Shown here: one piece after another, positions 7,755 through 63,718 of the stretch | Layout: every line of letters starts with the position of its first letter | How positions within the stretch are numbered: position 1 is the stretch's first letter | Assembly (NCBI RefSeq): GCF_000568255.1 | Contig: NZ_KK037166.1 | Location: 8,723,891-8,787,890, forward strand | Length of the DNA stretch: 64,000 bases | Origin: Kutzneria sp. 744 | GTDB lineage: Bacteria; Actinomycetota; Actinomycetes; Mycobacteriales; Pseudonocardiaceae | Reading direction: 5' to 3' | Position numbers and translations under genes: made by a program | Notes under the pieces: generated by a model | Told to the model about the DNA's origin: nothing | What the model saw: the letters and a program-made list of their open reading frames with translations, nothing else | Database searches by the model: none

Positions 7755-7758
7755 TGCG

Positions 7759-9689: not shown

Positions 9690-9721
9690 GCTGTCTTCCA
9701 ATCGGCACCGGGTGTCATTAG

Positions 9722-9739: not shown

Positions 9740-9767
9740 GCAAGCCCGCCCCGTTCAGGAGTGTGTC

Positions 9768-9863: not shown

Positions 9864-9866
9864 CCG

Positions 9867-17768: not shown

Positions 17769-17771
17769 GTC

Positions 17772-18590
17772 ATGCTGGTCGTCGCCGCGCTGACCTGGCC
17801 CGGCCCGCGCACCGTGGTCGACCAGCTCACGGGGAGCACCCGGACCGAGGAGGGCCGGCCGGGCGCCAGCGCTGCCGGCCTGGCCGCGCTGGAACACGCC
17901 CTGCGCATCGGGGAATCGCTCGGCGGCAAGGTTGTCGCCGTGACCATCGGCCCGTCGGCGGCCGAGGAAATGCTGCGCGAGGCGGTGGCCGCCGGCGCCG
18001 GTGGTGCGCTCCGCGTTGACGCCGACCCGACGGATGACGAGGCCGTGGCGCGGGCGCTGCTGGCCGCCGTCGCCGAACGCCACGGCACCCCCGATGTCGT
18101 GGTGTTCGGCGACGACTCCGGCGACGTTCCCGGCTTCCTCGCGGCCATCACCGATACCGCGCAAGCGTTGGGGTTGCTGGAGCTCACCGTCGAACAGGGT
18201 GTCCTCAATGGACTCCGACGGCTGGACAAGGGTCGGCGTGAGCGCCTGGCCATCCCGATGCCGGCGGTGTGCTCGGTGGAACCGGTGCTGCGGCCCCGCC
18301 GCGCCGGCCTGCCGGCGATGCTGGCCGCCCGTAACACGACCATTCCTGTCGTGAAGCCAGTCGTTCCCGGCTGGACAGTGCGGGCGGGAACTATCCGGGC
18401 ATACCGGCCGCGCGCCAGAATTCTTCCGATACCCGCGGCCGATCAGGCCAGAGACCGCATAGTTGCCCTGACGAACGCGGTGTCCGCGGGCGGCTCCGCA
18501 ACCGTGGTGACGCCGCCCGACGCGGCGGCCGCGGCTGACCTCCTGCTCGATTACCTGTCCAGGCACGGCTATCTGGGGGACACGACATGA
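17772..18590 (+). CDS. Electron transfer flavoprotein beta subunit (FixA/EtfB-like)
   Basis: This 272-residue protein has the ETF beta AMP-binding fold (ALEHALRIGESLGGKVVAVTIGP) and a recognisable but divergent signature loop RRLDKGRRERLAIPMPAVCSVE. It pairs with the ETF alpha product. The N-terminal half is typical; the last 60 residues are less conserved. Its stop overlaps the next SDR start by ATGA. Confidence 0.88.
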   Translation: MLVVAALTWPGPRTVVDQLTGSTRTEEGRPGASAAGLAALEHALRIGESLGGKVVAVTIGPSAAEEMLREAVAAGAGGALRVDADPTDDEAVARALLAAVAERHGTPDVVVFGDDSGDVPGFLAAITDTAQALGLLELTVEQGVLNGLRRLDKGRRERLAIPMPAVCSVEPVLRPRRAGLPAMLAARNTTIPVVKPVVPGWTVRAGTIRAYRPRARILPIPAADQARDRIVALTNAVSAGGSATVVTPPDAAAAADLLLDYLSRHGYLGDTT

Positions 18591-19372
18591 CGCCACGAGT
18601 CGCGGTGGTGACGGGCGCGGCCCGTGGCATCGGCGCGGCCGTGGTGCGCCGGCTGGCCGGTGAGGGCTGGCGGGTCGTCGCCGTGGACATCTGCGAAGAC
18701 ATTCCCGGGCTCGGCTATTCGTTGGCCTCCAAGGAAGAACTCCTGTCGCTGGTGCGGGAGTTCCCGGACACCGTCCGCGAGGTCGTGGCTGACGTTCGTG
18801 ACGCCGGAGCCCTGGTCGAGGCGGCGGAGATCGCGCAGCGGGAGTTCGGTGGCCTGGACGCGGCCGTCGCCGCGGCGGCGGTGATCGCCGGCGGGCATCC
18901 GCTGTGGGAGTCCGACGACGAGGAATGGCAGCTACAGCTGGACATCGGCGTGAGCGGCGTGGCCAACCTGGCCCGCGCGGCCATACCCGTGATGCTTCGC
19001 TCGGCCCAACCCCGGTCCGGCCGCTTCGTCGCCCTGGCCTCGGCCGCCGCGCATCGCGGCCTCTGGCACGCCGCCGGCTACAACGCCACCAAGCACGCCG
19101 TTGTCGGGCTGATCCGTGGACTGGCCCATGACCTGCGCGGCACCGGCATCACCGCGACCGCCGTGTCGCCGGGCAGCACGCGCACCAGCCTGCTCGACGC
19201 CAGCGCCGCCTTGTACGACCTGGCCGACGTCGAGGAGTTCAGCCGCTACCACCTCACCGAACAGTTGCTGCGGCCGGAAGAGGTCGCCGACGTGGTGAGT
19301 TTCCTGTGCGGCAAGGGGGCGTCCTCCATCACCGGCACCGTTGTGCACGCCGACGGGGGGTTCACGGCATGA
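18587..19372 (+). CDS. Mycofactocin-coupled SDR, second subfamily
   Basis: This 261-residue SDR has GAARGIGAAVVRRLAGEG and the catalytic YNATK. The stretch VAVDICEDIPGLGYSLASKEEL is the mycofactocin-type insert that traps NAD. It differs from the SDR at 5.9 kb and resembles the second subfamily found inside mycofactocin operons. It probably oxidises an alcohol and delivers the hydride to mycofactocin. It overlaps ETF beta and mftF by ATGA. Confidence 0.88.
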   Translation: MTPRVAVVTGAARGIGAAVVRRLAGEGWRVVAVDICEDIPGLGYSLASKEELLSLVREFPDTVREVVADVRDAGALVEAAEIAQREFGGLDAAVAAAAVIAGGHPLWESDDEEWQLQLDIGVSGVANLARAAIPVMLRSAQPRSGRFVALASAAAHRGLWHAAGYNATKHAVVGLIRGLAHDLRGTGITATAVSPGSTRTSLLDASAALYDLADVEEFSRYHLTEQLLRPEEVADVVSFLCGKGASSITGTVVHADGGFTA

Positions 19373-39638: not shown

Positions 39639-41006
39639 ATGGCCGATCTTCACGAGTACCGGCGGAAACGGGATGCCCGGCGCACTCCCGAGCCGGTGCC
39701 CGCGGACGGTCCGCTGCCCGTCGGCGACGACGACGTCTTTGTGGTGCAGGAGCATCACGCCACCCGGCTGCACTACGACGTGCGGTTCGAACGAGATGGC
39801 GTCTTGGTGTCGTGGGCCGTGCCCAAGGGCCTGGTGATGAATCCCGGCGCGGTGCGGCTGGCCGTGCACACCGAGGACCACCCCATGGAGTACGCCTCGT
39901 TCGAGGGCGACATTCCCAAGGGGGAGTACGGCGGCGGTCACGTGTCCATCTGGGACCGTGGCACGTATGAGACGCACAAGTGGACCGACTACGAGATCGA
40001 CGTGACCTTCCACGGAACCCAGCTCGACGGGCGCTATGTGTTCATCCACAAGGAGGACAAGGACTGGCTGGTCCGCAAGCGTGGCAAGCGGATCAACACC
40101 TCGACCATGGTCGAGGTCGAGGGGCGGCGGCTGAAGCTGACCAACCTGGAGAAGATCCTCTATCCGGCCGACGGCTTCACCAAGGCGCACGTCATCGACT
40201 ATTACCGCCAGGTCGCGCCGATGCTGCTGGCGCACCTGGCCGAGCGGCCGGTGACGCTGAAGCGCTTTCCCGACGGCGTGGACTCGCAGTCCTTCTTCGA
40301 GAAGAACGTCTCCCGTCACGCGCCGGAGTGGTTGCGCACCATGACCTTGCCGACGCCGGGCAGCTCGCGCGGGGCCGAGACCCTCGACTTCGCCATGATC
40401 GACGACCTGCCGGGCCTGGTGTGGGCGGCCAACCTGGCGGCGCTGGAGCTGCACGTTCCACAGTGGACCGTCGGCCCGCGCGGCGGCGTGCGGCCGCCCG
40501 ATCTGCTGGTCTTCGACCTCGATCCGGGCCCCGACACCACCGTCGTCGAGTGCTGCCAGGCCGCCCTGCTGATCCGGGAGATCCTGGCCGAGGACGGCTT
40601 GACCGGCTTCCCCAAGACCAGCGGCTCCAAGGGTCTTCAGATGTACGTCCCGGTTCAGGTCCGCGACCCGGAGCGCACCTCCGAGTACGCCAAGGCCGTG
40701 GCCCAGCGCCTCGCGTCCGCCCATCCCGACCGGTACGTCGCCGTGATGGCCAAGGCCCGCCGTGGTGGCCGCGTTTTTGTCGACTGGAGCCAGAACAACC
40801 CGGCCAAGACCACCATCGCGCCGTACTCGCTGCGGGCTCGGGACATGCCGACCGTGTCCACGCCGCTCACGTGGCGTGAGGTCGAGCGCTGCCGCAAGCC
40901 GGCCGACGTCACCTTCACCGCGCCGGACGTGTTGGCCCGCCTGGACAAGCACGGCGACCTGCTGGCCGATCTGCACAAGGAACCGGGCCGGCTGCCGCGC
41001 ACTTAG
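39639..41006 (+). CDS. ligD: LigD phosphoesterase-polymerase protein (NHEJ), ligase domain absent
   Basis: This is a 455-residue protein. Residues 1 to about 150 are the 3'-phosphoesterase domain (HHATRLHYDVRFERDG, WAVPKG, FEGDIPKGEYGGG). About 165-440 is the archaeo-eukaryotic primase-like polymerase (LTNLEKILYPADG, VFDLDPGPDTT with the metal Asp pair, KTSGSKGLQ). The C-terminal ATP-ligase domain of one-piece LigD is missing; a separate LigD-like ligase gene lies at 51.9 kb. No Ku gene is in the window. Confidence 0.93.
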   Translation: MADLHEYRRKRDARRTPEPVPADGPLPVGDDDVFVVQEHHATRLHYDVRFERDGVLVSWAVPKGLVMNPGAVRLAVHTEDHPMEYASFEGDIPKGEYGGGHVSIWDRGTYETHKWTDYEIDVTFHGTQLDGRYVFIHKEDKDWLVRKRGKRINTSTMVEVEGRRLKLTNLEKILYPADGFTKAHVIDYYRQVAPMLLAHLAERPVTLKRFPDGVDSQSFFEKNVSRHAPEWLRTMTLPTPGSSRGAETLDFAMIDDLPGLVWAANLAALELHVPQWTVGPRGGVRPPDLLVFDLDPGPDTTVVECCQAALLIREILAEDGLTGFPKTSGSKGLQMYVPVQVRDPERTSEYAKAVAQRLASAHPDRYVAVMAKARRGGRVFVDWSQNNPAKTTIAPYSLRARDMPTVSTPLTWREVERCRKPADVTFTAPDVLARLDKHGDLLADLHKEPGRLPRT

Positions 41007-51850: not shown

Positions 51851-52798
51851 GTGGTGGTGGCGGGACGGTCGGCGGTGCCGGAGCCGGTGGAGCCGATGCT
51901 GGCGAGCTCCGACGGGGGAGAGCTGCCGGACGGCGACGGGTGGTCGTACGAGTTCAAGTGGGACGGCTACCGGGCGGTCATGCGGGTGGCCGAGGACGGC
52001 ACGACGCGGCTCAACAGCAGGAACCTCAACGATTTAACCGTCAGGTACGCGGAGCTGACGGAGCCGGGGCTGCCCACCGAGGCGGTGCTGGACGGGGAGA
52101 TCGTGGCGCTGGACCGGGACGGGGTGCCGGACTTCGGCCTGCTGCAGAACCGGGCGGTGAAGGTGCGGTATTTCGCCTTCGACCTGCTGCGCCTCGGGGA
52201 CACGGACCTGACGGACGAGCCCTACGGCCGGCGCCGGGAGCTGCTGGCGGAGCTGGGGGCGACCAGCCCGAGGATCTCGATCACGCCGTACTACGACCAC
52301 CGGGACGTCGACCCGAACGAGCTGCTGCGCATCGCGGCGGCCTCGCGGCTGGAGGGGCTGATCGCCAAGGTCACGAACTCCCGCTACCACCCGGGCCGCC
52401 GCAGCACGGAATGGCTGAAGCACCCGTTCGTCCATACCCAGGAGGTGGTGCTGGGCGGCTGGCGGCCGGGGCAGGGCCGCCGGGACGGCACGATCGGGGC
52501 GCTGCTGCTCGGCGCGTACGACGACAGCGGCCTGCGGTACATCGGTGACGTCGGCACGGGCTTCACCGATCAGGCGCTACGTGACCTGCAACGCGAGCTG
52601 GAACCGTTGGCGCGCAAGGATCCTCCGTTCGTCAACGCGGTGCCGAGGGAACGGGCCAGACGGGTGCACTGGCTGCGGCCGGAGCGGGTGGGCGAGGTGG
52701 AATACCGCAAGTTCACGGCGGATCGCGTGCTGAGGCATTCCTCGTGGCGCGGACTGCGGCCGGACCGCCGGCCGGAGGAGGTGCGCTGTCCCGACTAG
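51851..52798 (+). CDS. LigD-type ATP-dependent DNA ligase
   Basis: This 315-residue ligase has motif I EFKWDGYRA (AMP-accepting Lys near residue 36), RNLNDL, VLDGEIVALD, YFAFDLLRLG, EGLIAKV and WLKHPF, and an OB-fold half with VLGGWRPGQGRR. These are the ligase-domain features of LigD. With the PE-Pol protein 11 kb away it would rebuild a split LigD. It starts at GTG. Confidence 0.92.
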   Translation: MVVAGRSAVPEPVEPMLASSDGGELPDGDGWSYEFKWDGYRAVMRVAEDGTTRLNSRNLNDLTVRYAELTEPGLPTEAVLDGEIVALDRDGVPDFGLLQNRAVKVRYFAFDLLRLGDTDLTDEPYGRRRELLAELGATSPRISITPYYDHRDVDPNELLRIAAASRLEGLIAKVTNSRYHPGRRSTEWLKHPFVHTQEVVLGGWRPGQGRRDGTIGALLLGAYDDSGLRYIGDVGTGFTDQALRDLQRELEPLARKDPPFVNAVPRERARRVHWLRPERVGEVEYRKFTADRVLRHSSWRGLRPDRRPEEVRCPD

Positions 52799-53661: not shown

Positions 53662-54389
53662 TCCGGGTCGCCGCCGTCGGCGACGTGCATCTCGGCGTCG
53701 ACACGAGGGGAACCCTGCGCCCGTCCTACGAAAGCATCGCCGAGCACGCGGATCTGCTGCTGCTGGCCGGTGATCTGACCCGGCTCGGCACCGTGGCCGA
53801 AGGTGAGGTCGTCGCCGACGAGTTCGCCGAGCTGGACGTGCCGGTCGTGGCGGTGCTGGGCAATCACGACCACCAGTCCGACGCCGAGGACAAGATCGCC
53901 GCGCTGCTGGCCGACCGGGGCATCACCGTGCTGGAGGGCAGCGGAACGGTGATCGACGTCGACGGCACGCGGATCGGCATCGCCGGCGCCAAGGGCTTCG
54001 GCGGCGGGTTCGCCGGGAAGTGCGGGCATGCCTTCGGGGAGCGCGAGATGAAGGCGTTCATCCATCACACCGAGGACGTCGCCGAGCAGCTGCGGACGGC
54101 GCTGCTGGGGCTGAGCGCCGACGTTCGGGTGGCCTTGACGCACTACTCGCCGTCGGCCGACACGCTGCGCGGCGAGCCGCCGGAGATCTTCCCGTTCCTG
54201 GGCTCGTACCTGCTGGCCGAGGCCATCGACGACAGCTCCGTCGACCTGGCCGTGCACGGGCATGCCCACTACGGCAGCGAGGCCGGCACCACCGCCGGCG
54301 GGGTGCGGGTGCGGAACGTGGCCCAGCCGGTGATCCAGGCCGCCTACCGGGTCTACACGTTGGAGCCGGTCTCGACCGTCCCGGAGTGA
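53658..54389 (+). CDS. Metallophosphoesterase
   Basis: This 243-residue calcineurin-like phosphoesterase has VGDVHLG, LLLAGDLT, VLGNHDHQ, LTHYSPS and VHGHAHYG, giving all metal ligands. IHHTEDVAEQL and KGFGGGFAGKCG match a group seen next to actinobacterial nucleotidyltransferases. It is the last gene of the operon. Its 3' end overlaps the convergent SARP gene by 37 bp. Confidence 0.88.
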   Translation: MIRVAAVGDVHLGVDTRGTLRPSYESIAEHADLLLLAGDLTRLGTVAEGEVVADEFAELDVPVVAVLGNHDHQSDAEDKIAALLADRGITVLEGSGTVIDVDGTRIGIAGAKGFGGGFAGKCGHAFGEREMKAFIHHTEDVAEQLRTALLGLSADVRVALTHYSPSADTLRGEPPEIFPFLGSYLLAEAIDDSSVDLAVHGHAHYGSEAGTTAGGVRVRNVAQPVIQAAYRVYTLEPVSTVPE

Positions 54390-57329
54390 GCCCGGATCTC
54401 GGCCGCCTCGGCGTGGAAACCGGCGTCGTCCAACAGGGTTTCCGCCTGCCGCCAACACAGTCCGGCGTCCGCCGGCTTGCCGGCCGCATGCAGCACGTGG
54501 CCGAGCTGCCGCAGCGCACGGGCGTGTTCCTGCCGCAGCTCCAGGCCCTCGGTCGTGGCGACGGCCCGCTCGGCCAGCGCCAGCGCCGACTCCGGCGAGT
54601 TGGTCAGCAGCCCGACCCAGCTCAGCAGCCGCCACGCCCACGCCTTGCCGGCCATGTCGTCGTGCTCGTCGAAGAACACCAGCGCCTGCTGCGCCTCGGT
54701 GCGCGCGGTGTCCTTCGCGCCCATCCGCAGGTACGTCTCGGCCAGTGTCAGCCGCAGGTTGGCCACCAGGTCCGGGTCGCCGAGCTGGTGCGCGTCGGTC
54801 AGGCTGGCGTGGATGTGCTCGACGGCCCCGGCCAGCTCGCCGCGGGCGTGCAGCACCCGGCCCAGCTCCAGCGCCGCCGACAGCATGCCCATCCGGTCGT
54901 CCAGCTCGGTCGCCGTCTCGAGGGCCCGGCGCAGGTACGCCTCGGCCGCGGAGTTCCGGCCGGCCCGCCGCTCGATCGCGCCCAGCGAGCACAGCACGTC
55001 GACCTGCCCGTGCCGGTTGCGGGCGGTCTCGAAGCGCCGCATTGCCATCTCGTGGCACGCCCTGGCCTCGGCCTGCCGGCCGAGCCACTCGTGCATCCAG
55101 CCGACGCCGTGCCAGGCGTAGCCGGCGCCGTCGGCGTCCGCCAGGTACTCGAAGACGTCCTTGGCCCGGGTGAAGTCGCGCTGGGCGTCGGCGAAACGGT
55201 GCTGACGGCTGTTCAGCAGGCCACGCTGCTGCACGAGGATCGCCTCGGCCGGTGTCGCGCCGACGGCGGCGGCCAGGCCGAGCCCGTTCGACATCTCCCA
55301 GTCGTCGAACCGGGCGCGCAAGTCGCAGGCCGCGGCGCCGGCGATGGCCAGCCGGGCCGTCTGCTCGGCCAGGCCCATGGCGGCGCACTGGGCGATCACC
55401 CCGCCCAGCGTCATCCACTCGGCGTCGAACCAGCCGGTCGGGTCGGCCAGCAGCCGCTCACCCAGCACACCGGCGTCGCTGACGGCCAGCCGCGGGCCGC
55501 GCTGGGCGATCTTGTGGTCGGCGCACTCGGCCAGCGCCACCCACTGGTCCATCAGCGCGACCAGCGCGGCGTCGTCGGCGTCGCCGAGGTCGCGGCCGAA
55601 CACCCGGAGCAGGTCGTGCAGGCGGTAGCGGGTCTGCCCGAGGGCGTCCCAGCCGAGGGTGTCCACCAGCCTGGCGTCGACCAGCGCCTCGACGTGGTCC
55701 TCGGCGGTGTCCGGGTCGACGCCGAGCAGCGGCCCGGCCACCCAGGCCGGGAAGTCGGGCGTGTCCAGCCGGGCCAGCAGCCGGAACGCCCGCTGCTGCG
55801 GCTCGGCCAGCTCCCGGTAGCTCAGCGTCAGGCTGGCCCGCACGTCCAGGTCGCCGAACCGCAGCTCGTCCAGCCGTCGCCGCTCGTCCGACAGCCGGGC
55901 GGCCAGCTGCGTCAGCCGCCAGTGCGGCCGCGCGACCAGCCGGGCCGCCGCGACCCGCAGGGCCAGCGGCAGGCGACCGCAGTACTCGACGAGCTGTTCG
56001 GCGGCCGCCGGTTCCGCCGCCACCCGCGCCGGGCCGAGCACCTTCCGGACGGCGTCGCCGGGGAGTGAGCACCGCCAGCGGCAGGACCTGGGCCGACTCC
56101 AGGCCGGCCAGCACCGATCGGCTGGTCACGAGCGCGGCGGACGTGGTCGTGCCCGGCAGCAGCGGCCGGACCTGGGCCTCGGTCGCGGCGTTGTCCAGCA
56201 CGACCAGGATCCGCCGGTCGGCGACCCGGTCGCGGTACAGCGCGACGCGCTGGTCCAGCGCCGCCGGGATCGCCGCGCCGGGGGTGCCCAGGCCGCGCAG
56301 CAGGCGGTCCAGCGCCTCGGCCGGCTCCACCGGGCGTTCCTGCGACTGCAGGTCCAGGTACAGCTGGCCGTCCGGGTAGCAGCTGCGGACCAGGTGAGCG
56401 ACGTGCACGGCCAGGCTGGTCTTGCCGACGCCGCCGGGGCCGGTGATCATCCACACCCGGCGCGAGTCCCGCTCGGCCCGCAGGCTGTGCGTCATCCGGA
56501 CGACGTCCTCGGTGCGCCCGGCCAGCGTGGCCACGGCCGGCGGCAGCTCGCACCGCGGGGCCCAGGCCGGCTCCGCCCGCGGTGGCACGCCGACCGGCTC
56601 GGCCGAACCACCCAGCACGGCCTGGTGCAGCGCCCTGAGCTCGGCGTTCGGGTCGATGCCCAGCTCGTCGGCCAGCACCTCGCAGCAGCGCCGGTACGCG
56701 TCCAGGGCCTGCGCCTGCTGCCCGCCGTGGTGCAGAGCCAGGATCAGCTGAGCCCAGAACCGCTCGCGTAACGGGTGTTGCGTTACCAGGTCGCGCAGCT
56801 CGTCGACGAGCGCCTCGTGCCGGCCGAGCCGCAGCTGGACCTCGTTGCGCCGCTCCACCGCGTCCCACCGGCGCTCGTCCAGCCGCAGCGACTCGGTCGA
56901 ATGGCCGGTGAACGCCGGTCCGCGCCAGAGGCTCAGCGCCTCGGTCAGCAGGCGCGCCTCCTCGGCCGTGTCCTCGGCACGTTCCGCCTGCCGGGCCTGC
57001 GACCGCAGCCGATCGAACCGGATAAGGTCGAGGGCGCTCGGCTCGATCCGGATCGAGTAGCCGCCGGGCACGGTCCGCACCAGAGAGCTGTCGCCGAGGG
57101 TGTTGCGCAGGCGCATCACGTGCGTCTGCAACGTGGCGCGGGCGCCGTCCGGCGGATCCTCGCCCCACAGCCGGTCGACCAGGTCGTCCGCGGAGACGGG
57201 TTCGTTGGCGCGCACCAACAACACCGCGAGCAGCAGCTGCTGTTTGGTCGAACGCAACTGGACCGTTCGGCCCTCGTGTCGGACCTGAAGCGGCCCGAGC
57301 ACGCCGAACTCCCACCCGACTCCGGACAT
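54353..57329 (-). pseudogene. AfsR-like SARP regulator (wHTH-BTAD-NB-ARC-TPR), one frameshift
   Basis: It starts at ATG 57329 with an OmpR-like winged helix (FGVLGPLQVRHEGRTVQL..LLLAVLLVRANEPVSADDLVDRLWG). A BTAD domain follows (ALDAYRRCCEVLADELGIDPNAELRALHQAVL), then an NTPase with ITGPGGVGKTSLAVHVA and RRILVVLDNAATEAQ, and TPR repeats to the stop. The frame breaks at a GGGG run on the plus strand (56060-56063). Removing one base turns LAVLTPRR into LAVLTPGDAVRKVLGPARV. SARPs activate promoters through direct repeats, and this gene is divergent from the secreted-protein array. Confidence 0.88.
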
Positions 57330-57386
57330 GGCCCCCACTGCGCAGAACTCGACAGGGATCGAACGAAAGCGACTGTACATCGAGGC

Positions 57387-57542
57387 GTCAGCAAAAAGTC
57401 AGCGTCGCGTGCGGTCCGCCGCCAGCAGCTGATTCGTGCTCGGTTGCCAGGAAGTCACGGCCCCGGGCCGTGACCGGGTCACGGTGACCTGAGTCACGGT
57501 CGGCCGCCGCACCCGCCGGCACCCGTCAGGCCGAAGTCAGGG
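57387..57542 (+). promoter_or_regulatory. Array promoter A: two SARP-like direct-repeat pairs and GTGAC palindromes
   Basis: GTCAGCA-N4-GTCAGCG at 57387-57404 and GTCAGGC-N4-GTCAGGG at 57525-57542 both have the 11-bp phase used by SARP activators. Between them CCGTGACCGGGTCACGG (from about 57469) and GTGACCTGAGTCAC form overlapping palindromes. The whole block is repeated before the second half of the array. The gap also holds the SARP gene's own promoter. Confidence 0.75.
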
Positions 57543-57579: not shown

Positions 57580-58029
57580 ATGATGATTCGCAAACTGTTG
57601 TTCGGCCTGGTGGCGGTGGCCGCGACGCTGGCCACGCTCGGCGCGGGCCCGGCCCAGGCCGAGTCGGCCCCCGGCTGCTCGGGCACGGTGCAGATCGGCA
57701 CGACGGCCTACGTCGACTACGGCGGCCAGCACATCGCCTCGGTCAAGCAGTTCAAGGGCTGCAACAGGAACTGGGCCTACGTGTACGCCTGGCAGGGCTT
57801 CGTGGACAGCGGCAAGGGCTTCACCCTGCGCACGGCGATCGGCGCCTTCGGCAGCGCCAGCCAGCAGGAGGCCGACCGCTACCTCGGCCTCACCATCGGC
57901 CACCACAACCAGCGCGAGCTGTGGTCGCCCGGCACGGACACGCTGACCACCTGCACGGCCGCGTTCGGCGCGGTCTCCATCGACGGCGTCAGCAGCACGC
58001 CGGACAACCACACGTCGATCAGGTGCTGA
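57580..58029 (+). CDS. Secreted four-cysteine protein, array member 1
   Basis: Function unknown. It has 149 residues, a signal peptide ending near GPAQA-E and a mature domain of about 120. Cys 33, 61, 125 and 149 are the only mature cysteines, and the last is the final residue, so two disulfides are likely. The family core is APGCSGTVQIGTTAYVDYG, then VKQFKGC-NRNWAYVYAW, and RELWSPGTDTL before the third Cys. It belongs to the long subgroup with members 7, 8 and 12 (DYGGQHIAS, FVDS, ending IRC). It is first in unit A; AGAGGGG lies upstream and a second ATG directly follows the first. Confidence 0.9.
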   Translation: MMIRKLLFGLVAVAATLATLGAGPAQAESAPGCSGTVQIGTTAYVDYGGQHIASVKQFKGCNRNWAYVYAWQGFVDSGKGFTLRTAIGAFGSASQQEADRYLGLTIGHHNQRELWSPGTDTLTTCTAAFGAVSIDGVSSTPDNHTSIRC

Positions 58030-58463
58030 TGACGATGCTGAGGAAACTGTTGTGCGCCACGGGTGTCGCGGCGCTGGCGATGGCCGGCCTCGGGACCGGG
58101 GTGGCCCAGGCCGAGCAGGCACCGGGGTGTTCGAGCACGGTGCAGATCGGCTCGACCGCCTACGGCGCCTACCAGGGGCAGAACGCCATCTCGGTCAAGC
58201 AGTTCAAGGGCTGCGGCAAGAACTGGGCCTACACCTTCGTGTGGCAGAGCTTCCGGGACCGGCACATCGCCTACCACGGCCACGCCTCGGTCTACGTGCA
58301 GTTCGACGGCGGCATGTCGTGGGGCGACGTGGACAAGGCCGGCAGCCCGGTCGAGGTGTGGTCGGAGGGCACGAACACGCTGGACACGTGCACCCAGGCC
58401 TCCGGTTACATCCAGTGGGACAACGACAAGTTCGTCGAGGCGAAGACCGGATGGCGTTGCTGA
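58029..58463 (+). CDS. Secreted four-cysteine protein, array member 2
   Basis: This 144-residue protein has a signal peptide ending GVAQA-E. It follows the family pattern APGC, VKQFKGC-GKNWAYTFVW, TLDTCTQASG and a terminal WRC. The middle part (YHGHASVYVQFDGGMSWGD) is unlike any other member, so it is the only one of its subgroup. Its ATG overlaps the stop of member 1 by one base, implying coupled translation. Confidence 0.9.
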   Translation: MTMLRKLLCATGVAALAMAGLGTGVAQAEQAPGCSSTVQIGSTAYGAYQGQNAISVKQFKGCGKNWAYTFVWQSFRDRHIAYHGHASVYVQFDGGMSWGDVDKAGSPVEVWSEGTNTLDTCTQASGYIQWDNDKFVEAKTGWRC

Positions 58464-58474
58464 GAGGGGAAAGC

Positions 58475-58903
58475 GTGAAGTTCATGCTGGCCGCCGCCGC
58501 GTCGGCGGCGATGGTGGCGGGCGGTCTCGGGGCGGGTGTGGCGCAGGCGGAGTCCGCGCCGGGCTGCGCCAGCACTGTCCAGATCGGATCGACGGCGTAC
58601 GCCAAGTTCCAGGGGCAGGACATCGCCTCGGTGAAGCAGTTCAAGGGCTGCGGCAAGAACTGGGCGTACGTCTACGTGTGGGAGAGCTTCCGGGCCCGGG
58701 GCCTGCACTACCTGCTGACCGCCGCCGTCGAGGTCAATCCCGGCCCGAACGCCACCTACAAGGGCGGCAAGGACAAGCTCGGCGACCCGGTCGAGCTGTG
58801 GTCGTCCGGCACCGACACGCTGTCGGACTGCACCGCCGGCTACGGCCTGATCTCCCTTTACCAGTACGACAACTACCCGGCATGGACGGACACCCGATGC
58901 TGA
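58475..58903 (+). CDS. Secreted four-cysteine protein, array member 3
   Basis: This 142-residue protein starts at GTG after GAGAGGGGA. Its signal peptide (VKFMLAAAASAAMVAGG...VAQA-E) is followed by the subgroup with KFQGQDIAS, YVWESFRARGLHY, a NPGPNATY loop and the DTRC end, shared with members 4 and 9. The four Cys are conserved. Confidence 0.9.
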   Translation: MKFMLAAAASAAMVAGGLGAGVAQAESAPGCASTVQIGSTAYAKFQGQDIASVKQFKGCGKNWAYVYVWESFRARGLHYLLTAAVEVNPGPNATYKGGKDKLGDPVELWSSGTDTLSDCTAGYGLISLYQYDNYPAWTDTRC

Positions 58904-59328
58904 GATCCCCGGTCGTGGCGGCTGCCGCGGCCGCGATGGTGATGGGCGGTCTCGGGGCGGGTGCGGCGCAGGCGGAGGCGGCGCCGGGTTGTTCGAGCAC
59001 GGTGCAGATCGGCTCGACGGCGTACATCAAGTTCCAGGGGCAGGACATCGCCTCGGTGAAGCAGTTCAAGGGTTGTGACAAGAACTGGGGCTACATCTAC
59101 GTCTGGGAGAGTTTCCGCCAGCGCGGTCTGCACTGGTTCCTCGCCGCGGCGGTCGACGTCAACCCCGGCCCGAACGCCGTCTATGAGGGCGGTCTGGACA
59201 ACATACACAGTCCGGTCGAGTTGTGGTCCAAGGGCACCGACACGTTGTCGGACTGCACCGCGGGCTACGGAATGATCTCGGTCATCGGATACGACAACTT
59301 CGCGGCCTGGACGGACACACGATGCTGA
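58897..59328 (+). CDS. Secreted four-cysteine protein, array member 4
   Basis: This 143-residue protein is of the same subgroup as members 3 and 9 (KFQGQDIAS, YVWESFRQRGLHW, NPGPNAVY, DTRC). Its first 100 residues are especially close to member 9. The ATG lies inside the last codons of member 3 (CGATGCTGA), a 7-bp overlap, so it relies on re-initiation rather than its own Shine-Dalgarno site. Confidence 0.9.
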   Translation: MLRSPVVAAAAAAMVMGGLGAGAAQAEAAPGCSSTVQIGSTAYIKFQGQDIASVKQFKGCDKNWGYIYVWESFRQRGLHWFLAAAVDVNPGPNAVYEGGLDNIHSPVELWSKGTDTLSDCTAGYGMISVIGYDNFAAWTDTRC

Positions 59329-59747
59329 CGGCGAAACTGCTGGGGATCGCGGCCGCGGCCGCGCTGGTGATGGGCGGTCTCGGGGCGGGTGTGGCGCAGG
59401 CGGAGTCGGCGCCGGGTTGTTCGAGCACGGTGCAGATCGGCTCGACCGCGTACATCAAGGACGGCGGCGAGACCGCCGCCTCGGTCAAGCAGTTCAAGGG
59501 CTGCGGCCAGAACTGGGCCTACATCTACATGTGGACGGCATACCTGGCGCATCATTCCGGCTTCTACATGACGGCGGCCATCGACGCCGGCGCGGAGGGG
59601 CTGGGTTTCGTGCGTGGCGACAAGAATCAGCGTGAGGTGTGGTCGTACGGCACCGACACGCTGAACATGTGCACCCGCGCGGCCGGAGAAATCACCTTCG
59701 TGGGCAGCAATCCGTTGCTGTACACGGAGACTGACCAGCGTTGCTGA
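59322..59747 (+). CDS. Secreted four-cysteine protein, array member 5
   Basis: This 141-residue protein is in a subgroup with member 10: KDGGETAAS, KGCGQNWAYIYMWTAYLAHHSGFY, GDKNQREVWSYGTDTLNMC. The signal ends GVAQA-E. The start overlaps the stop of member 4 through CGATGCTGA. Four mature Cys, the last terminal. Confidence 0.9.
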   Translation: MLTAKLLGIAAAAALVMGGLGAGVAQAESAPGCSSTVQIGSTAYIKDGGETAASVKQFKGCGQNWAYIYMWTAYLAHHSGFYMTAAIDAGAEGLGFVRGDKNQREVWSYGTDTLNMCTRAAGEITFVGSNPLLYTETDQRC

Positions 59748-59758
59748 GAAGGAGAGTT

Positions 59759-60178
59759 GTGAAGTTCCTCGGAGTCGCAGCCGTCGCGGCCGCGTTGACC
59801 GTCGTCGGTCTGGGTTCGGGCACCGCGCAGGCGGAGTCGGCGCCGGGCTGTTCCAGCACGGTGCAGATCGGCTCGACGGCGTACATCACCTACGGCGGCC
59901 AGACCATCGCGTCGGTGAAGCAGTTCAAGGGCTGCAACAAGAACTGGGCCTACACCTATGTGTGGGACCAGTTCCGCGACAAGCGCACGGACTACACCAT
60001 CGACACCTACATCGACGCGGGCACCGACCCGCTGGGATACCAGGTGAGCGGTCGGGGCGCGCACGAGCTGTGGTCGTCCGGCACCAACACGCTCGGTGTC
60101 TGCACCCAGGCCGCCGGCTCGATCTGGTCCACGAGCGGCAATGACCTCGGCGGTGCCGAGACCGGCAAGCGCTGCTGA
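59759..60178 (+). CDS. Secreted four-cysteine protein, array member 6
   Basis: This 139-residue protein is in a subgroup with members 11 and 13: YVWDQFRDKRTDY, GAHELWSSGTNTL, ETGKRC. I use GTG 59759 because GAAGGAGA lies just upstream and the start VKFLG matches other members; an in-frame TTG at 59741 would add six residues. It is the last gene of unit A, and a terminator follows. Confidence 0.88.
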   Translation: MKFLGVAAVAAALTVVGLGSGTAQAESAPGCSSTVQIGSTAYITYGGQTIASVKQFKGCNKNWAYTYVWDQFRDKRTDYTIDTYIDAGTDPLGYQVSGRGAHELWSSGTNTLGVCTQAAGSIWSTSGNDLGGAETGKRC

Positions 60179-60195
60179 CCCCAGCGGCAGCGCGA

Positions 60196-60223
60196 AGCCC
60201 CCGAGCCGAAAGGCCCGGGGGCT
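60196..60223 (+). terminator. Terminator A of the secreted-protein array
   Basis: AGCCCCCGAGCC pairs with GGCCCGGGGGCT over GAAA (one mismatch) and is followed by TTGTC. Stem and downstream bases match terminator B (63693-63718), so the terminator was duplicated along with the genes. Confidence 0.8.
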
Positions 60224-60262
60224 TTGTCGTGTCTGGGTGTGCTGCCGCTCCGGGCGGCCGGT

Positions 60263-60428
60263 GTCAGTGAAAAGTCAGCGTCGCGTGCTGGCCGCCACCA
60301 GCAGCCGAATCACGGTGGGGCGCGCCGAAATCACGCCTCTGACCGTGACCGGGTCACGGTGACCTGGGTCACCGCCACTGGCACCTCGGATCGGCCCGCG
60401 CCAGTGACCGGTCAGGGCGGAGTCAGCG
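60263..60428 (+). promoter_or_regulatory. Array promoter B: duplicate of promoter A
   Basis: GTCAGTG-N4-GTCAGCG (60263-60280) and GTCAGGG-N4-GTCAGCG (60411-60428) keep the 11-bp phase. CCGTGACCGGGTCACGG (60343-60359) and GTGACCTGGGTCAC lie between. The word AAAAGTCAGCGTCGCGTGC is shared with promoter A. Spacing between the two pairs is 148 bp, against 138 bp in promoter A. Confidence 0.75.
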
Positions 60429-60484
60429 GAGGCGGCGAGTGTTCTGTCTGACCGAGGGACCGCCACTCCTGGAGGGGAACGTCA

Positions 60485-60517
60485 ATGATCAAGACCATCA
60501 GCCGGGTGCCGGCATGA
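60485..60517 (+). CDS. Possible 10-residue leader peptide (MIKTISRVPA)
   Basis: GGAGGGG lies about 7 bp before ATG 60485. The frame ends in TGA overlapping the ATG of array member 7 (ATGA). The best Shine-Dalgarno site therefore serves this mini-ORF, and member 7 would be reached by coupling. It could instead be the relic of an older signal-peptide start lost to a frameshift. Confidence 0.4.
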   Translation: MIKTISRVPA

Positions 60518-60960
60518 CGCACGTCCGGACGATCACGCTCGTGCTGGCCCTGCTCGCCGGCCTGCTGGCCACCGCCGGCGCCGCGCAGGCCGAGACCCCG
60601 CCCGGCTGCGCCAGCACCACCCAGGTCGGGCCGACCGCGTATGTCGACTACCGCGGCCAGCACATCGCCTCGGTCAAGTGGTTCACCGGCTGCGGCAAGA
60701 ACTGGTCGTACGTGTACGCCTGGCAGTCCTTTGTAGACAGCAAGAAGTCGTTCTTCCTGACTTCCGCCATGGCCATGTACACCACTCCCGCCCAGCCGGA
60801 TCCCGACTACGCCGTCGGGCTGGTCCACGGCAGGACGGGCCAGCGCGAGCTGTGGTCGACCGGCGTCGCCGCGGTGCGCAAGTGCACCGCGGCACTCGGC
60901 AACGTCGCGATACTCAGCGACGACGCCTTCGTCGACGCGCACACGGAGATCAGGTGCTGA
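60514..60960 (+). CDS. Secreted four-cysteine protein, array member 7
   Basis: This 148-residue protein is the first of unit B and, like member 1, is of the long subgroup (DYRGQHIAS, YAWQSFVDS, GRTGQRELWS, ending IRC). It is the most divergent of that set: PPGCASTTQVGPTAY and VKWFTGC replace the usual APGCSSTVQIGSTAY and VKQFKGC. The signal peptide is MTHVRTITLVLALLAGLLAT...AQA-E. I chose ATG 60514 because it starts that peptide. Confidence 0.88.
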   Translation: MTHVRTITLVLALLAGLLATAGAAQAETPPGCASTTQVGPTAYVDYRGQHIASVKWFTGCGKNWSYVYAWQSFVDSKKSFFLTSAMAMYTTPAQPDPDYAVGLVHGRTGQRELWSTGVAAVRKCTAALGNVAILSDDAFVDAHTEIRC

Positions 60961-60965
60961 CGACA

Positions 60966-61406
60966 ATGCGGAAACTGTTGTGCGGCACGGCTGTCGTGGC
61001 CACCATGCTGGCGACCGTCGGGGTCGGCCCGGCGCAGCCGGAGTCCGCGCCGGGGTGTTCGAGCACGGTGCAGATCGGCTCGACCGCCTACCGCTCGTAC
61101 CTGGGGCAGGTTGTCGCGTCGGTGAAGCAGTTCAAGGGCTGCGGCCAGAACTGGGGCTACATCTACGTCTGGCAGTCCTTCGTGGACGGCAAGCTGCCGT
61201 TCTACCTGGAGGCCGGCGTCGCCGTGTTCGACAGCCCGACGCATCGGCAGCCCGACCGCTACCTCGGTCTCACGCGGGGCAAGGTCGGCCAGCGCGAGCT
61301 GTGGTCGGCCGGTGCGGACACCCTGTCCGCGTGCACCGCCGCCTACGGCCTCATCTCCATCAGTGGCGCGGACGACCACGACACCCTCACCTCGATCAGG
61401 TGCTGA
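60966..61406 (+). CDS. Secreted four-cysteine protein, array member 8
   Basis: This 146-residue protein is of the long subgroup (YVWQSFVDG, GKVGQRELWS, LTSIRC). The expected AQA signal-peptidase site has become AQP (GVGPAQPESAPGC), which should block cleavage at the usual point; cutting could move to GPA-Q. The start ATG 60966 lies 5 bp after the stop of member 7. All four mature Cys are kept. Confidence 0.88.
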   Translation: MRKLLCGTAVVATMLATVGVGPAQPESAPGCSSTVQIGSTAYRSYLGQVVASVKQFKGCGQNWGYIYVWQSFVDGKLPFYLEAGVAVFDSPTHRQPDRYLGLTRGKVGQRELWSAGADTLSACTAAYGLISISGADDHDTLTSIRC

Positions 61407-61416
61407 GGAGCAAACC

Positions 61417-61845
61417 ATGAAGATCCTGTTGGCCGCCGCGGCGTCGTTGGCGCTGGTGGCGGGCGGTTTCGGCGCCGGCGTGGCGCAGGCGGAGGCGGCG
61501 CCGGGTTGTTCGAGCACGGTGCAGATCGGCTCGACGGCGTACATCAAGTTCCAGGGGCAGGACATCGCCTCGGTGAAGCAGTTCAAGGGTTGTGACAAGA
61601 ACTGGGGCTACATCTACGTCTGGGAGAGCTTCCGCCAGCGCGGTCTGCACTGGTACCTCCTCGCGGCGGTGAACGTCAACCCCGGCGTGCACAACGTCTA
61701 CCAGGGCGACACGACCAACCTTGACAGCGTGAAGGAGTTGTGGTCCACGGGAACCGACACATTGTCGGAGTGCACCGCGGGCTACGGACTGATCTCGATC
61801 GTCGGATACGACCACTACTCGGCTTTCACGGACACCCGATGCTGA
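61417..61845 (+). CDS. Secreted four-cysteine protein, array member 9
   Basis: This 142-residue protein is of the subgroup with members 3 and 4; long stretches (KFQGQDIASVKQFKGC, GYIYVWESFRQRGLHW) are identical to member 4. It differs in the NPGVHNVYQGDTTNLDSVKE loop. GAGGAG lies about 8 bp before ATG 61417, giving a strong independent start. The signal ends GVAQA-E. Confidence 0.9.
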   Translation: MKILLAAAASLALVAGGFGAGVAQAEAAPGCSSTVQIGSTAYIKFQGQDIASVKQFKGCDKNWGYIYVWESFRQRGLHWYLLAAVNVNPGVHNVYQGDTTNLDSVKELWSTGTDTLSECTAGYGLISIVGYDHYSAFTDTRC

Positions 61846-62261
61846 CCGCGAGACTGCTGGGGGTCGCGGGCGCGGCCGCGCTGGTGATGGGCGGCTTCGG
61901 ATCGGGGGTGGCGCAAGCGGAATCCGCGCCGGGCTGTTCGAGCACCGTGCAGATCGGCTCGACCGCGTACATCATGGACGGCAGCCAGACGGCCGCCTCG
62001 GTCAAGCAGTTCAAGGGCTGCGGTCAGAACTGGGGCTACGTCTACGTGTGGACGGCCTACCTGGCGAAGCATTCGGGTTTCTACGTGTTCGCCGCCATCG
62101 GCGACGGCGGGGAGCCGATCGGCCTCGTTCGTGGCGACAAGAACCAGCGTGAGGTGTGGTCGTACGGCACCAACACGCTCAACGTGTGCACCTGGGCCGT
62201 CGGCGACATCGATTTCGTCGGCGGTCCGATGCTGCACCAGGACACCGGCAAGCGCTGCTGA
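61839..62261 (+). CDS. Secreted four-cysteine protein, array member 10
   Basis: This 140-residue protein is the sister of member 5 (DGSQTAAS, VWTAYLAKHSGFY, VRGDKNQREVWSYGTNTLN). It overlaps member 9's stop through the same CGATGCTGA junction that joins members 4 and 5, so the 4-5 and 9-10 gene pairs were duplicated as a unit. It ends GKRC. Confidence 0.9.
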   Translation: MLTARLLGVAGAAALVMGGFGSGVAQAESAPGCSSTVQIGSTAYIMDGSQTAASVKQFKGCGQNWGYVYVWTAYLAKHSGFYVFAAIGDGGEPIGLVRGDKNQREVWSYGTNTLNVCTWAVGDIDFVGGPMLHQDTGKRC

Positions 62262-62272
62262 AGGGACGAACC

Positions 62273-62689
62273 ATGAGGTTGCTGGGAGTCGTGGCCGTTT
62301 CGGCCGCGCTGACTGTCGCCGGTCTCGGGGCGGGCACCGCGCAGGCGGAGGCGGCGCCGGGGTGTTCGAGCACGGTGCAGATCGGCTCGACGGCGTACGC
62401 GAAGTACCAGGGGGAGATCAGCGCGTCGGTGAAGCAGTTCAAGGGCTGCGGCAAGAACTGGGCGTACATCTACGTGTGGGACCAGTTCCGGGCGAAGCAC
62501 CTCGACTACTACCTCATCTCCTTCATCGCCATCGGCGACGATGCCTTCGGTTACAAGGAGAGCGCGACGGGCGCACGCGAGCTGTGGTCGTCGGGGACCG
62601 ACACGCTGGCGGCGTGCACGCGCGCTGACGGCGCCATCTTCGGCCGCGATGCGGACTACGGCTACGCCGAGACCGACCAGCGCTGCTGA
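62273..62689 (+). CDS. Secreted four-cysteine protein, array member 11
   Basis: This 138-residue protein is of the subgroup with members 6 and 13 (YVWDQFRAKHLDYY, ATGARELWSSGTDTL, ETDQRC). AAGGGA precedes ATG 62273. The signal peptide MRLLGVVAVSAALTVAGLG..TAQA-E resembles that of member 6, again in line with block duplication (5-6 and 10-11). Confidence 0.9.
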   Translation: MRLLGVVAVSAALTVAGLGAGTAQAEAAPGCSSTVQIGSTAYAKYQGEISASVKQFKGCGKNWAYIYVWDQFRAKHLDYYLISFIAIGDDAFGYKESATGARELWSSGTDTLAACTRADGAIFGRDADYGYAETDQRC

Positions 62690-62706
62690 CCAAGAGGGAG
62701 ACAGGC

Positions 62707-63150
62707 ATGAAGTTCCTTGCAGTGGCGGCCGCTTCGGTCGCGTTGGTGGTCGGCGGTCTCGGTTCCGGCGTGGCGCAGGCGGAAACCGTGCCGGGGTGTT
62801 CGAGCGCCGTGCAGATCGGCGCGACGGCGTACATCGACTACGGCGGCAAGCACATCGTCTCGGTGAAGCAGTTCAAGGGCTGTGACAAGAAGTGGGCGTA
62901 CATGTACGCCTGGCAGACCTTCGTGGACAGTCGCAAGTCGTTCTTCATGACCTCCGCCGTCGGCGTGTTCGGACTGGTCACCCAGCCCGATCCGGACTAC
63001 CTCGTCGGTGTCGTGCACGGCAGGACCGGCCAGCGCGAGGTGTGGTCGTCGGCCACCGACACCGTGACGAACTGCACCACCGCCGCGGGCGACGTCGCCC
63101 TCGTCACCGACGACAAGTTCCTCCAGGTCTACTCGCAGATCAGGTGCTGA
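62707..63150 (+). CDS. Secreted four-cysteine protein, array member 12
   Basis: This 147-residue protein is of the long subgroup and closest to member 7 in its middle (FVDSRKSFFMTSAV, QPDPDYLVGVVHGRTGQRE). It differs at VPGCSSAVQIGATAY, DKKWAYMYAW and the end SQIRC. GAGGGAGA precedes ATG 62707. Its place between two members of the 6/11/13 subgroup suggests a later insertion or unequal exchange. Confidence 0.9.
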   Translation: MKFLAVAAASVALVVGGLGSGVAQAETVPGCSSAVQIGATAYIDYGGKHIVSVKQFKGCDKKWAYMYAWQTFVDSRKSFFMTSAVGVFGLVTQPDPDYLVGVVHGRTGQREVWSSATDTVTNCTTAAGDVALVTDDKFLQVYSQIRC

Positions 63151-63185
63151 CCGGGATGCGAAACACGCAGTGGAGGGGAGAAGTC

Positions 63186-63602
63186 GTGAAGTTCATGCTG
63201 ACCGCTGCCGCGTCCTTGGCGCTGATGGCCGGTGGTCTGGGCGCCGGGGTGGCACAGGCCGAGGCGGCGCCGGGGTGTTCGAGCACCGTGCAGATCGGCT
63301 CGACCGCGTATGCCAGCTACGAGGGGCAGACCATCGCGTCGGTGAAGCAGTTCAAGGGCTGCGGCAAGAACTGGGCCTACACCTACGTGTGGGACCAGTT
63401 CCGGGCGAAGAACCTGGACTACTACATCGTCACCTTCGTCGACTCCAGCGCGACTGACGTCGGGTTCAGGACGAGCACGAAGAACGCGCGGGAGTTGTGG
63501 TCGGGCGGCACCGACACGTTGGCGCTCTGCACGAGGGCCGCGGGCGCGGTCTACCTGGGCAGCAAGGCCTACGACGCGGTCGAGACCGACGAGCGTTGTT
63601 GA
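63186..63602 (+). CDS. Secreted four-cysteine protein, array member 13
   Basis: This 138-residue protein starts at GTG after GGAGGGGAG. It is of the subgroup with members 6 and 11 (YVWDQFRAKNLDYY, NARELWSGGTDTL, ETDERC). The signal is VVKFMLTAAASLALMAGG..VAQA-E. It is the last intact copy; a decayed fragment and terminator B follow. Confidence 0.9.
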   Translation: MKFMLTAAASLALMAGGLGAGVAQAEAAPGCSSTVQIGSTAYASYEGQTIASVKQFKGCGKNWAYTYVWDQFRAKNLDYYIVTFVDSSATDVGFRTSTKNARELWSGGTDTLALCTRAAGAVYLGSKAYDAVETDERC

Positions 63603-63692: not shown

Positions 63693-63718
63693 GCCCCCGG
63701 GCCTTCGGGCCCGGGGGC
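63693..63718. terminator. Terminator B of the array (bidirectional)
   Basis: GCCCCCGGGCC-TTCG-GGCCCGGGGGC is an 11-bp perfect stem with a UUCG-type loop, followed by TTTGTCATG. It is homologous to terminator A and also faces the convergent CGNR gene. Confidence 0.88.

Follow-up and report, generated by a model that had tools for sequence, protein, structure and literature searches.

The closest described counterparts of the control region treated here are the AfsR-type SARP regulators, known from the AfsR-afsS pair; according to PMC10936776, SARP targets carry repeats at a spacing of 11 or 22 bp, the 3' one lying 8 bp from the -10 element. Here, we analyse a 64,000-nt stretch of the Kutzneria sp. 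744 genome (NZ_KK037166.1, positions 8,723,891 to 8,787,890; hereafter the window), in which an array of 13 genes for small four-cysteine proteins with putative signal peptides (57580-63602, + strand) lies beside a divergent AfsR-type SARP gene (54353-57380, - strand). The locus resembles the AfsR/SARP systems in that the adjoining gene encodes OmpR-type DNA-binding, BTAD, NB-ARC and TPR domains, and in that the array has 11-bp direct repeats whose 3' copy stands 8 bp from a -10-like hexamer, the geometry given in PMC10936776. It differs in its putative target, a battery of secreted proteins and not a pathway activator or biosynthetic operon, and in that the window's regulator is frameshifted in the assembly. 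Overall, the statement best supported by the comparisons below is that the operators are conserved and that a SARP-type switch appears to have been kept between genera.

Array genes and operon layout

All 13 open reading frames (ORFs) proposed in a sequence-only reading of the window were found intact and, with the chosen starts, encode proteins of 138-149 amino acids. They are listed here with two putative terminators (G001 and G002 are congeners of the host; K5 is a family gene of G002).

57580..58029, +: gene 1, subgroup A, first of operon 1; ORF, with an AlphaFold model of the mature part; groups in the tree with the first family gene of the G001 and G002 arrays
58029..58463, +: gene 2, subgroup B; start overlaps the gene 1 stop by 1 bp
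58475..58903, +: gene 3, subgroup C, GTG start; ORF, with an AlphaFold model
58897..59328, +: gene 4, subgroup C; shares 7 bp with the end of gene 3
59322..59747, +: gene 5, subgroup D; shares 7 bp with the end of gene 4
59759..60178, +: gene 6, subgroup E, GTG start, last of operon 1; ORF
60197..60222, +: possible terminator after gene 6, a GC-rich hairpin followed by TTT; seen by eye and not returned by the terminator scan
60514..60960, +: gene 7, subgroup A, first of operon 2; ORF
60966..61406, +: gene 8, subgroup A; ORF
61417..61845, +: gene 9, subgroup C; ORF, groups in the tree with K5 of G002
61839..62261, +: gene 10, subgroup D; shares 7 bp with the end of gene 9
62273..62689, +: gene 11, subgroup E; ORF
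62707..63150, +: gene 12, subgroup A; ORF
63186..63602, +: gene 13, subgroup E, GTG start; ORF
63693..63718, +: terminator-like hairpin after operon 2; the scan gave 3 sites in the region vs 2.3 expected in shuffles

The description of the products as secreted-type four-cysteine proteins ending in cysteine proved accurate: each mature protein (113-122 residues, following A-Q-A/E or, in gene 8, A-Q-P/E) has exactly four cysteines, and the last residue is a cysteine in 13/13. A charged start, a hydrophobic stretch and an AxA site, all recognised by eye, make up a signal-like start and agree with the signal peptide that had been predicted; an LPXTG or other anchor was not seen by eye in any array protein. 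The mature proteins are 38-80% identical in pairs. Chance can be excluded as the source of the array, because a profile built from the 13 proteins scores them at E 1.8e-58 to 1.9e-66 against the host genome.

The sequence-only reading was right to place 13 genes in a row, but they do not form a single run. Genes 1-6 and genes 7-13 make up two operons, separated by 335 bp that contain a second copy of the promoter region. Distances inside the operons range from -7 to +35 bp: genes 2, 4, 5 and 10 overlap the preceding stop by 1-7 bp, and the remaining gaps measure 5-35 bp. The motifs quoted earlier are present without being invariant (PPGCASTTQVG and SVKWFTGC in gene 7; CDKKW in gene 12). Likewise, the five subgroups fit the identity matrix (1/7/8/12; 2; 3/4/9; 5/10; 6/11/13), but genes 11 and 13 are not resolved in the tree.

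Promoter repeats and the divergent SARP regulator

The regulator gene and the promoter elements of both operons comprise the following features (a dot marks features without an assigned strand).

54353..56041, -: C-terminal part of the SARP (remainder of NOD, and TPR), read in a different frame; G001 and G002 have a single intact frame
55458..57380, -: N-terminal part of the SARP (Trans_reg_C, BTAD, start of NB-ARC); homology ends at about residue 439
57387..57402, dot: operator 1 of operon 1, GTCAG-N6-GTCAG, an 11-bp direct repeat; read toward the SARP, the 3' repeat is 8 bp from TACAGT
57468..57484, dot: 17-bp palindrome CCGTGACCGGGTCACGG in the operon 1 promoter, matching its own complement except at one central position
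57525..57540, +: operator 2 of operon 1, an 11-bp direct repeat immediately upstream of gene 1, with GAGAGT following after 8 bp
60263..60278, dot: operator 1 of operon 2, counterpart of 57387-57402, found by repeat search
60343..60359, dot: second copy of the 17-bp palindrome, in the operon 2 promoter
60411..60426, +: operator 2 of operon 2, an 11-bp direct repeat 8 bp before GAGTGT

Two GTCAG-N6-GTCAG repeats and the 17-bp palindrome are common to both window promoters and to the array promoters of G001 and G002. Within the 64-kb window, all four GTCAG-N6-GTCAG sites fall in the two array promoters, with 0.22 expected. The A-rich repeat GTCAGNNAAAAGTCAGCG, with at most one mismatch, occurs genome-wide solely at these two promoters, as does the exact 17-bp palindrome, which has one other place at one mismatch; its binding protein may be other than the SARP. 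In the window, G001 and G002, the array-proximal repeat is followed after 8 bp by GAGAGT, GAGTGT, GAAGGT or CAGTCT. Downstream of the repeat facing the SARP, TACAGT stands at a distance of 8 bp in the three SARP-bearing loci, and not in operon 2, which has no SARP.

The same arrangement recurs outside the genus. Nine loci (eight of Lentzea and one of Nocardia sp. NRRL S-836) have a divergent SARP 52-61% identical to that of the window, and all nine carry GTCAGCGA(A/T)ATGTCAGCG, 8 bp and GATGCT just before the family gene. At the Lentzea loci with a convergent downstream SARP match, CTGAC-N6-CTGAC, 8 bp and a hexamer were found in 11/11, the hexamer being GGTGTA in 8/11. Altogether, the repeat is present at 22/80 loci (at L086 far from the family gene) vs one site in 720 kb of control DNA. 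The SARP is inferred to bind the 11-bp repeats.

The frames of the window's SARP split at about 55.95-56.07 kb, and the same protein is a single frame of 985 and 999 amino acids in G001 and G002, respectively; the split may be a real frameshift or an assembly error. In the Pfam scan, the N-terminal part matched BTAD (E 1.7e-41), Trans_reg_C (1.2e-11) and, weakly, NB-ARC (15.4 bits, cut-off 23.5), and the C-terminal part matched TPR_12 (4.1e-19). Against the NCBIfam AfsR model the two parts gave E 1.9e-104 and 1.6e-59, each under the full-length cut-off.

Family identity and distribution

The four-cysteine family is new to the libraries searched, in agreement with its description as unrecognised: no strong match to a characterised family was found. 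Scans of five window proteins against Pfam, NCBIfam, PHROGs and PADLOC, and of 76 family members against Pfam and NCBIfam, gave nothing above cut-off. PDB sequences did not match the family profiles at E<=0.1 (best Hapless 2, E 0.11), Rfam returned nothing at the array at its gathering threshold, and a literature search turned up no account of this family. Lactococcin 972 (TIGR01653) was considered and rejected: the match covers gene 1 residues 5-57, signal peptide included, at 13.5 bits and E 0.065 (cut-off 32.1), and the model is absent from the NCBIfam match list of the 76 mature members.

In the host genome (one contig, 11.65 Mb), three further matches at E<=0.001 lie in two places outside the array: two together at 4.42 Mb, and a single weak member (E 1.9e-5) at 10.43 Mb. 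The latter belongs to the host's third locus (L134:4379-8599), where a SARP-like ORF is followed by small secreted-looking proteins, among them this member. Within the genus, the family was detected in 3/7 genomes, with 16, 8 and 9 matches. Of the wider taxonomic family, 29/297 genomes and 5/46 genera were positive, copy numbers being lower bounds since 13 candidates were scored per genome. In the phylum, 2/396 genomes were positive (11 candidates scored per genome), one of them the host's own. The best 80 of 93 confirmed loci were retained from the scan of named genomes and include Lentzea, Actinomadura, Planotetraspora, Streptomyces, Solihabitans, Umezawaea, Longimycelium and other genera. 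Four Streptomyces californicus plasmid records match at 32% identity, annotated as 'hypothetical protein'; in the one record inspected, the distant member L140 (NZ_CP070243.1, 8001-8327) lies upstream of an RHS-repeat protein gene. A phage origin was dropped because viral contigs gave 10 pattern matches with 0 confirmed and phage records no match at E<=1.

In alignment A2, the 13 proteins of the window stand with 63 of the 64 relatives that were non-redundant (from 99 hits), the truncated row L117 being left out. When L117 is included, each of the four cysteines is conserved in 76-77 of 77 rows, and 75/77 rows end in cysteine. An additional pair of cysteines is complete in 21/77 rows and single in 1/77; this co-occurrence suggests a third disulfide in some relatives.

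Predicted fold

AlphaFold2 gave confident models of two array proteins. For gene 3 (13 alignment rows), the mean predicted local distance difference test score (pLDDT) was 87, and blocks of ten residues averaged 91-98 from residue 31 onwards; for the mature part of gene 1 (76 rows), it was 97.2, with a predicted template modelling score of 0.90, and the model is all-beta with one short helix. The fold is thus confidently predicted as an immunoglobulin (Ig)-like beta sandwich, the structural relatives of which are unproven. At E<=0.001, Foldseek found no match in the PDB for either model or in BFVD for the gene 3 model.

VIA-align placed the rim domain of the MspA porin (2v9u, 1uun) first for both models, with Z 8.0/7.6 and 7.7 vs 6.9 and 7.5 for the next other folds; by the tool's own note, Z 7-8 is common for models without relatives. 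Next came superoxide reductases, the C-terminal part of 4ruw (7.5, gene 1 model) and Ig/fibronectin type III (FnIII) folds. The MspA rim aligns over 101-104 residues at a root-mean-square deviation of 3.6-3.8. It is unlike the array proteins in its 6-7% identity and in the four cysteines of the latter, the Z values lie within the range of unrelated folds, and neither predicted structure contains an insert resembling the long beta-hairpin transmembrane stem of the porin. The MspA family (PF09203) is absent from the Pfam matches listed for the five window proteins (E<=10) and the 76 members (E<=1), the HMMER filters dropping most weak matches. The superoxide reductase, FnIII and Ig-like sandwiches are similar at Z about 5.5-6.9, a likeness of arrangement only, without a PDB-chain sequence match at E<=0.1.

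Comparison with DUF2690

A faint likeness to DUF2690, a family of small secreted proteins from actinobacteria, had been noted from the pattern of residues. The PF10901 model itself (cut-off 23 bits) failed to connect the two: it was not among the matches of the 76 members at E<=1, gave no hit to gene 1, and in the host genome at E<=10 found three places, none in the array. Profile-profile comparison was more favourable. With all 30 DUF2690 loci and no motif choice, it returned E 0.0021 at a probability of 13.3% over 19 columns; the score of 22.55 was reached by 0/200 shuffles (maximum 21.8) and compares with 8.3 for the reversed profile. Alignment A3, for which a motif pattern picked 12 of the 16 sequences found (10 of the 30 DUF2690 loci matched), a choice in favour of the result, gave E 0.0023 and a probability of 12.7% over 38 columns in the strand and Cys-NW region, scoring 23.0 vs a maximum of 22.65 over 100 column shuffles. 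One pair reached E 8e-4 by BLASTP.

Genomic proximity points the same way. At the Lentzea loci with CTGAC repeats, the gene between the repeat and the family gene is DUF2690-like by tblastn in 9/11, and two of these genes scanned by Pfam scored 34.6 and 36.6 bits (cut-off 23); tblastn gave no DUF2690 match at the other two, L076 and L079. A DUF2690 search of 120 genomes gave five places in genus g8, taken to be Lentzea; three of these (G056:C17, G087:C7, G108:C27) lay at most 1 kb from family matches. Both families are of predicted secreted proteins and weakly share a 'CxxNW' core, and 8/30 sampled DUF2690 proteins end in cysteine. The N-terminal Cys...DP motif common in the 30 unselected DUF2690 rows, and invariant in A3 owing to the way that alignment was selected, is, however, absent from 13/13 array proteins, which lack the DP-containing stretch and have instead an SVKQF strand and an ELWSxGTxTLxxCT block. 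These sequence comparisons suggest common descent; the initial likeness is thus strengthened by the profile scores and the nine neighbouring genes and weakened by the low probability and the failure of the PF10901 model.

Neighbourhoods of relatives

Gene neighbourhoods were compared with 40 control stretches cut to 12.4 kb: 20 from G276 (genus g8) at 500-kb intervals, 10 from G000 at 600-kb intervals confined to 0.3-5.7 Mb, and 10 from G002 spaced by roughly 1 Mb, of which one was placed at 4.4 and not 4.6 Mb, avoiding the array. A SARP-type tblastn match was present at 34/86 family loci vs 2/40 controls (Fisher p 3e-5, uncorrected for relatedness). By genus, it was found in Kutzneria (4/7), Lentzea (20/48), Actinomadura (3/13), Planotetraspora (3/6), Nocardia sp. 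NRRL S-836 (1/4) and Solihabitans, Longimycelium and Umezawaea (1/1 each), as opposed to Streptomyces (0/2) and Hamadaea, Planosporangium and a metagenome-assembled genome (0/1 each). Two genomes contain 69 and 68 BTAD matches, fragments included, so about 7-8% would be expected per 12.4 kb.

A full-length gene of one of five hydrolase-type clusters occurs at 25/87 loci in eight genera and in 0/40 controls, and at 17 loci a hydrolase-type gene is located directly downstream on the same strand. This stricter, full-length count was used because tblastn matches at the Kutzneria main arrays may rest on an M23-tail domain, seen in L050. The scanned examples of the clusters are NlpC/P60 (with a sub-cut-off GsmA match), M23, I36+CHAP, I36+SpoIID and a weakly peptidoglycan-binding-like protein; cluster c8 has only weak peptidoglycan-binding matches, its M15-type peptidase label being a reading of the sequence by eye. 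Per genome examined, M23, CHAP and NlpC/P60 matches are few, at 2-3, 1-4 and 9-10, respectively. Apparent overlaps of hydrolase and family genes at L098, L108, L115, L133 and L138 hinge on taking the first start codon and may not be real. The proteins may still be weapons, inhibitors or lectins, as the sequence-only reading suggested; overall, the neighbourhoods of the relatives favour a role at the peptidoglycan or envelope.

The array operons of G001 and G002 open with one and two other small secreted proteins, respectively. One of the G002 proteins shares 48% identity across 110 residues with the C-terminal domain of an M23 peptidase from the Lentzea family locus L098, a domain matched at 13/80 loci and 0/40 controls. 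The congener leader presumably resembles spore-associated protein A, a label that the tblastn matches do not carry.

A second Kutzneria locus (L133, L138, L139) comprises a family pair, a peptidoglycan-binding-like protein, an I36-CHAP protein and a regulator with helix-turn-helix (HTH), NB-ARC and TPR domains; by clustering, with one member of each cluster scanned, it is common to three species. Just upstream of the family gene in one scanned locus each of Planotetraspora (L072:4571-5800) and Actinomadura (L085:4659-5795), a protein is encoded that combines an NBR1-type Ig domain (N_BRCA1_IG) with an HTH_31 match, the latter under the cut-off in L072.

Evolution and selection

A tree (W, window genes; K, G002; B, G001) was used to look for a recent local burst. 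The cross-species groups W1-K1-B1, W9-K5 and W6-K6-B5 are well supported and W2-K3-B3 less so (92/100), and W3, K4 and B4 share an open fork. For genes 5, 7, 8 and 10-13, neither G001 nor G002 offers a clear counterpart; eight forks are open, and W8, W12 and W13 are on long branches. Judged from their well-supported congener counterparts, types A, C and E at least would be older than the species. Given the genes without such counterparts, a large part of operon 2 may be confined to this lineage.

The pooled ratio of nonsynonymous to synonymous differences per site (pN/pS) for 15 orthologue pairs was 0.18 in the core, 0.43 in the middle and 0.38 in the C-terminal part, which indicates purifying selection between orthologues as far as the coding sequences tell; single pairs vary, with W9/K5 having a core value of 1.07 on few changes. 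For the 78 window paralogue pairs, the corresponding values were 0.44, 1.24 and 0.84, the middle having pN 0.53 vs pS 0.43. This excess may reflect past diversification or a GC-rich codon bias lowering pS. The diversifying selection supposed in the sequence-only reading is thus not seen between orthologues (0.18-0.43) and is possible between paralogues, where the value of 1.24 comes from pooled counts only.

Proposed role and alternatives

The reading we favour, at a probability of roughly 45%, is that of SARP-driven, secreted envelope-binding proteins that partner wall hydrolases. The 13 genes would encode small proteins for export, with an Ig-like beta-sandwich fold stabilised by disulfides; their family, undescribed so far and actinobacterial, may be a distant relative of DUF2690. 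Both operons and the regulator's own gene would be activated by the divergent AfsR-type SARP through binding of the 11-bp direct repeats 8 bp upstream of the -10-like hexamers, so that the array would be switched on together with secondary metabolism or development. The proteins would leave by the Sec route and fold with two disulfides, expected to be C6-C34 and C98-C122 in the mature part of gene 1, or with three in some relatives. Their conserved part (PxC...TQIGxTAY...SVKQFKGCxxNWxYxYVW) would attach to the same envelope component in every case, with peptidoglycan or a secreted hydrolase of peptidoglycan as the most likely candidates, and the variable middle would give each subgroup its own second specificity. 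The array proteins would thereby assist or target the lysis or remodelling of walls. Export via Sec, the pairing of the disulfides, attachment to the envelope and the partnership with hydrolases are what we infer from the evidence above. A bolder version, in which the SARP directly commands a combinatorial wall-targeting system of actinobacteria whose co-expressed paralogues carry individual binding faces on a shared wall-binding core and together steer the host's own or imported hydrolases to chosen wall targets, with DUF2690 and the M23-tail domain as parts, is doubtful.

Several observations weigh against this interpretation. The window's SARP is split over two frames in this assembly, and because of the frameshift the regulatory switch may be broken in this strain. 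The array-facing hexamers are poor -10 matches, a scan for sigma-70-type promoters found none, and the repeat was not found at Solihabitans L060 with its divergent SARP or at L094, L115 and L125 with downstream SARP matches. A SARP match is missing at 52/86 loci, and a full-length hydrolase-cluster gene was not found at 62/87 by the method used. No hydrolase gene lies beside the window array, the link running via relatives, and the comparison with 0/40 controls is partly circular because the clusters were picked for their recurrence at family loci. Moreover, the loci are not independent: 48/86 are from Lentzea, and L050 and L136 are one place. The window proteins also have isoelectric points of 4.9-7.1, the median of 64 relatives being 8.4.

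In the first of two main alternatives, the array would be a secreted antibacterial, bacteriocin-like cocktail in which each paralogue hits a different competitor target and is deployed with antibiotics under the SARP. Small secreted disulfide proteins in multi-copy operons, the SARP linkage with its operators, the divergence of the paralogues chiefly in the middle (pN/pS 1.24), the secreted wall hydrolases adjoining some relatives and the patchy distribution (29/297 genomes of the family; 2/396 of the phylum, own genome included) all suit such a role. We nevertheless consider it rather improbable: the gene spacing leaves no space for an immunity gene within the operons, the orthologues are under purifying selection with several types common to species, and toxin-family models stayed below cut-off (Ntox17 E 0.073, MafB 0.18, lactococcin 972 0.065). 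In the second, the proteins would be components of a surface or a spore or sporangium coat, made in development and assembled from several paralogues, whose tightly packed, partly overlapping genes suggest a joint stoichiometry. The neighbours of relatives are in line with this: an NsdA-family regulator scored 227 bits against a cut-off of 75 and SpoIID 42 bits against one of 23, while GsmA (103 bits, cut-off 240) and SleB stayed below theirs. So is the presumed likeness of the congener leader to spore-associated protein A. However, the NsdA-type and SpoIID genes are at loci other than the main array, a coat role alone does not account for SARP control, and the array proteins showed no LPXTG or other anchor by eye, so that we regard this possibility, too, as unlikely.

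The 17 loci in which a hydrolase-type gene follows at once on the same strand, together with a peptidase-inhibitor I36 domain in three scanned neighbour proteins, could also speak for secreted inhibitors or immunity factors restraining co-encoded or foreign hydrolases. The main array, however, has no hydrolase gene, and one conserved core set against chemically different hydrolases (NlpC/P60, M23, CHAP) would point to a shared wall ligand, which makes an inhibitory function quite improbable. Least probable is a ring-former whose sandwich oligomerises like the MspA rim into an outer-envelope pore or collar. The rim domain does top VIA-align for both models and is the top Foldseek PDB match of the gene 3 model (E 1.6e-3), but it drops to rank 8 (E 0.12) for the better model, 4ruw and superoxide reductase come within about 1 Z at values usual for models without relatives, and the beta-hairpin stem and a listed MspA match in Pfam are both missing.

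Other features of the window

Mycofactocin genes occupy 5912-19372, with MftB at 9867-10136, a radical SAM maturase at 10137-11300, an old yellow enzyme-family oxidoreductase 2 at 13165-15105 and two mycofactocin-coupled short-chain dehydrogenases/reductases at 5912-6760 (- strand) and 18587-19372. Beside them is a type I polyketide synthase (PKS)-like ORF (27-4520); the Rfam ASpks match at 210-278 (- strand, 64 bits) lies inside the PKS coding region and is perhaps just PKS sequence likeness. A LigD-type protein with phosphoesterase and polymerase domains is encoded at 39639-41006 (+ strand), and a ligase-like ORF, recognised by eye only, at 51851-52798.

Implications

The array defines an unnamed family of predicted exported proteins, with a fold that is confidently modelled, together with a candidate regulator-operator pair. 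The family is tied to peptidoglycan hydrolases in its relatives and to DUF2690, the function of which is also unknown. If the favoured reading is true, SARPs would extend beyond antibiotic control to an extracellular programme of wall-acting proteins, and a route would be opened to the function of several 'hypothetical' secreted families together.

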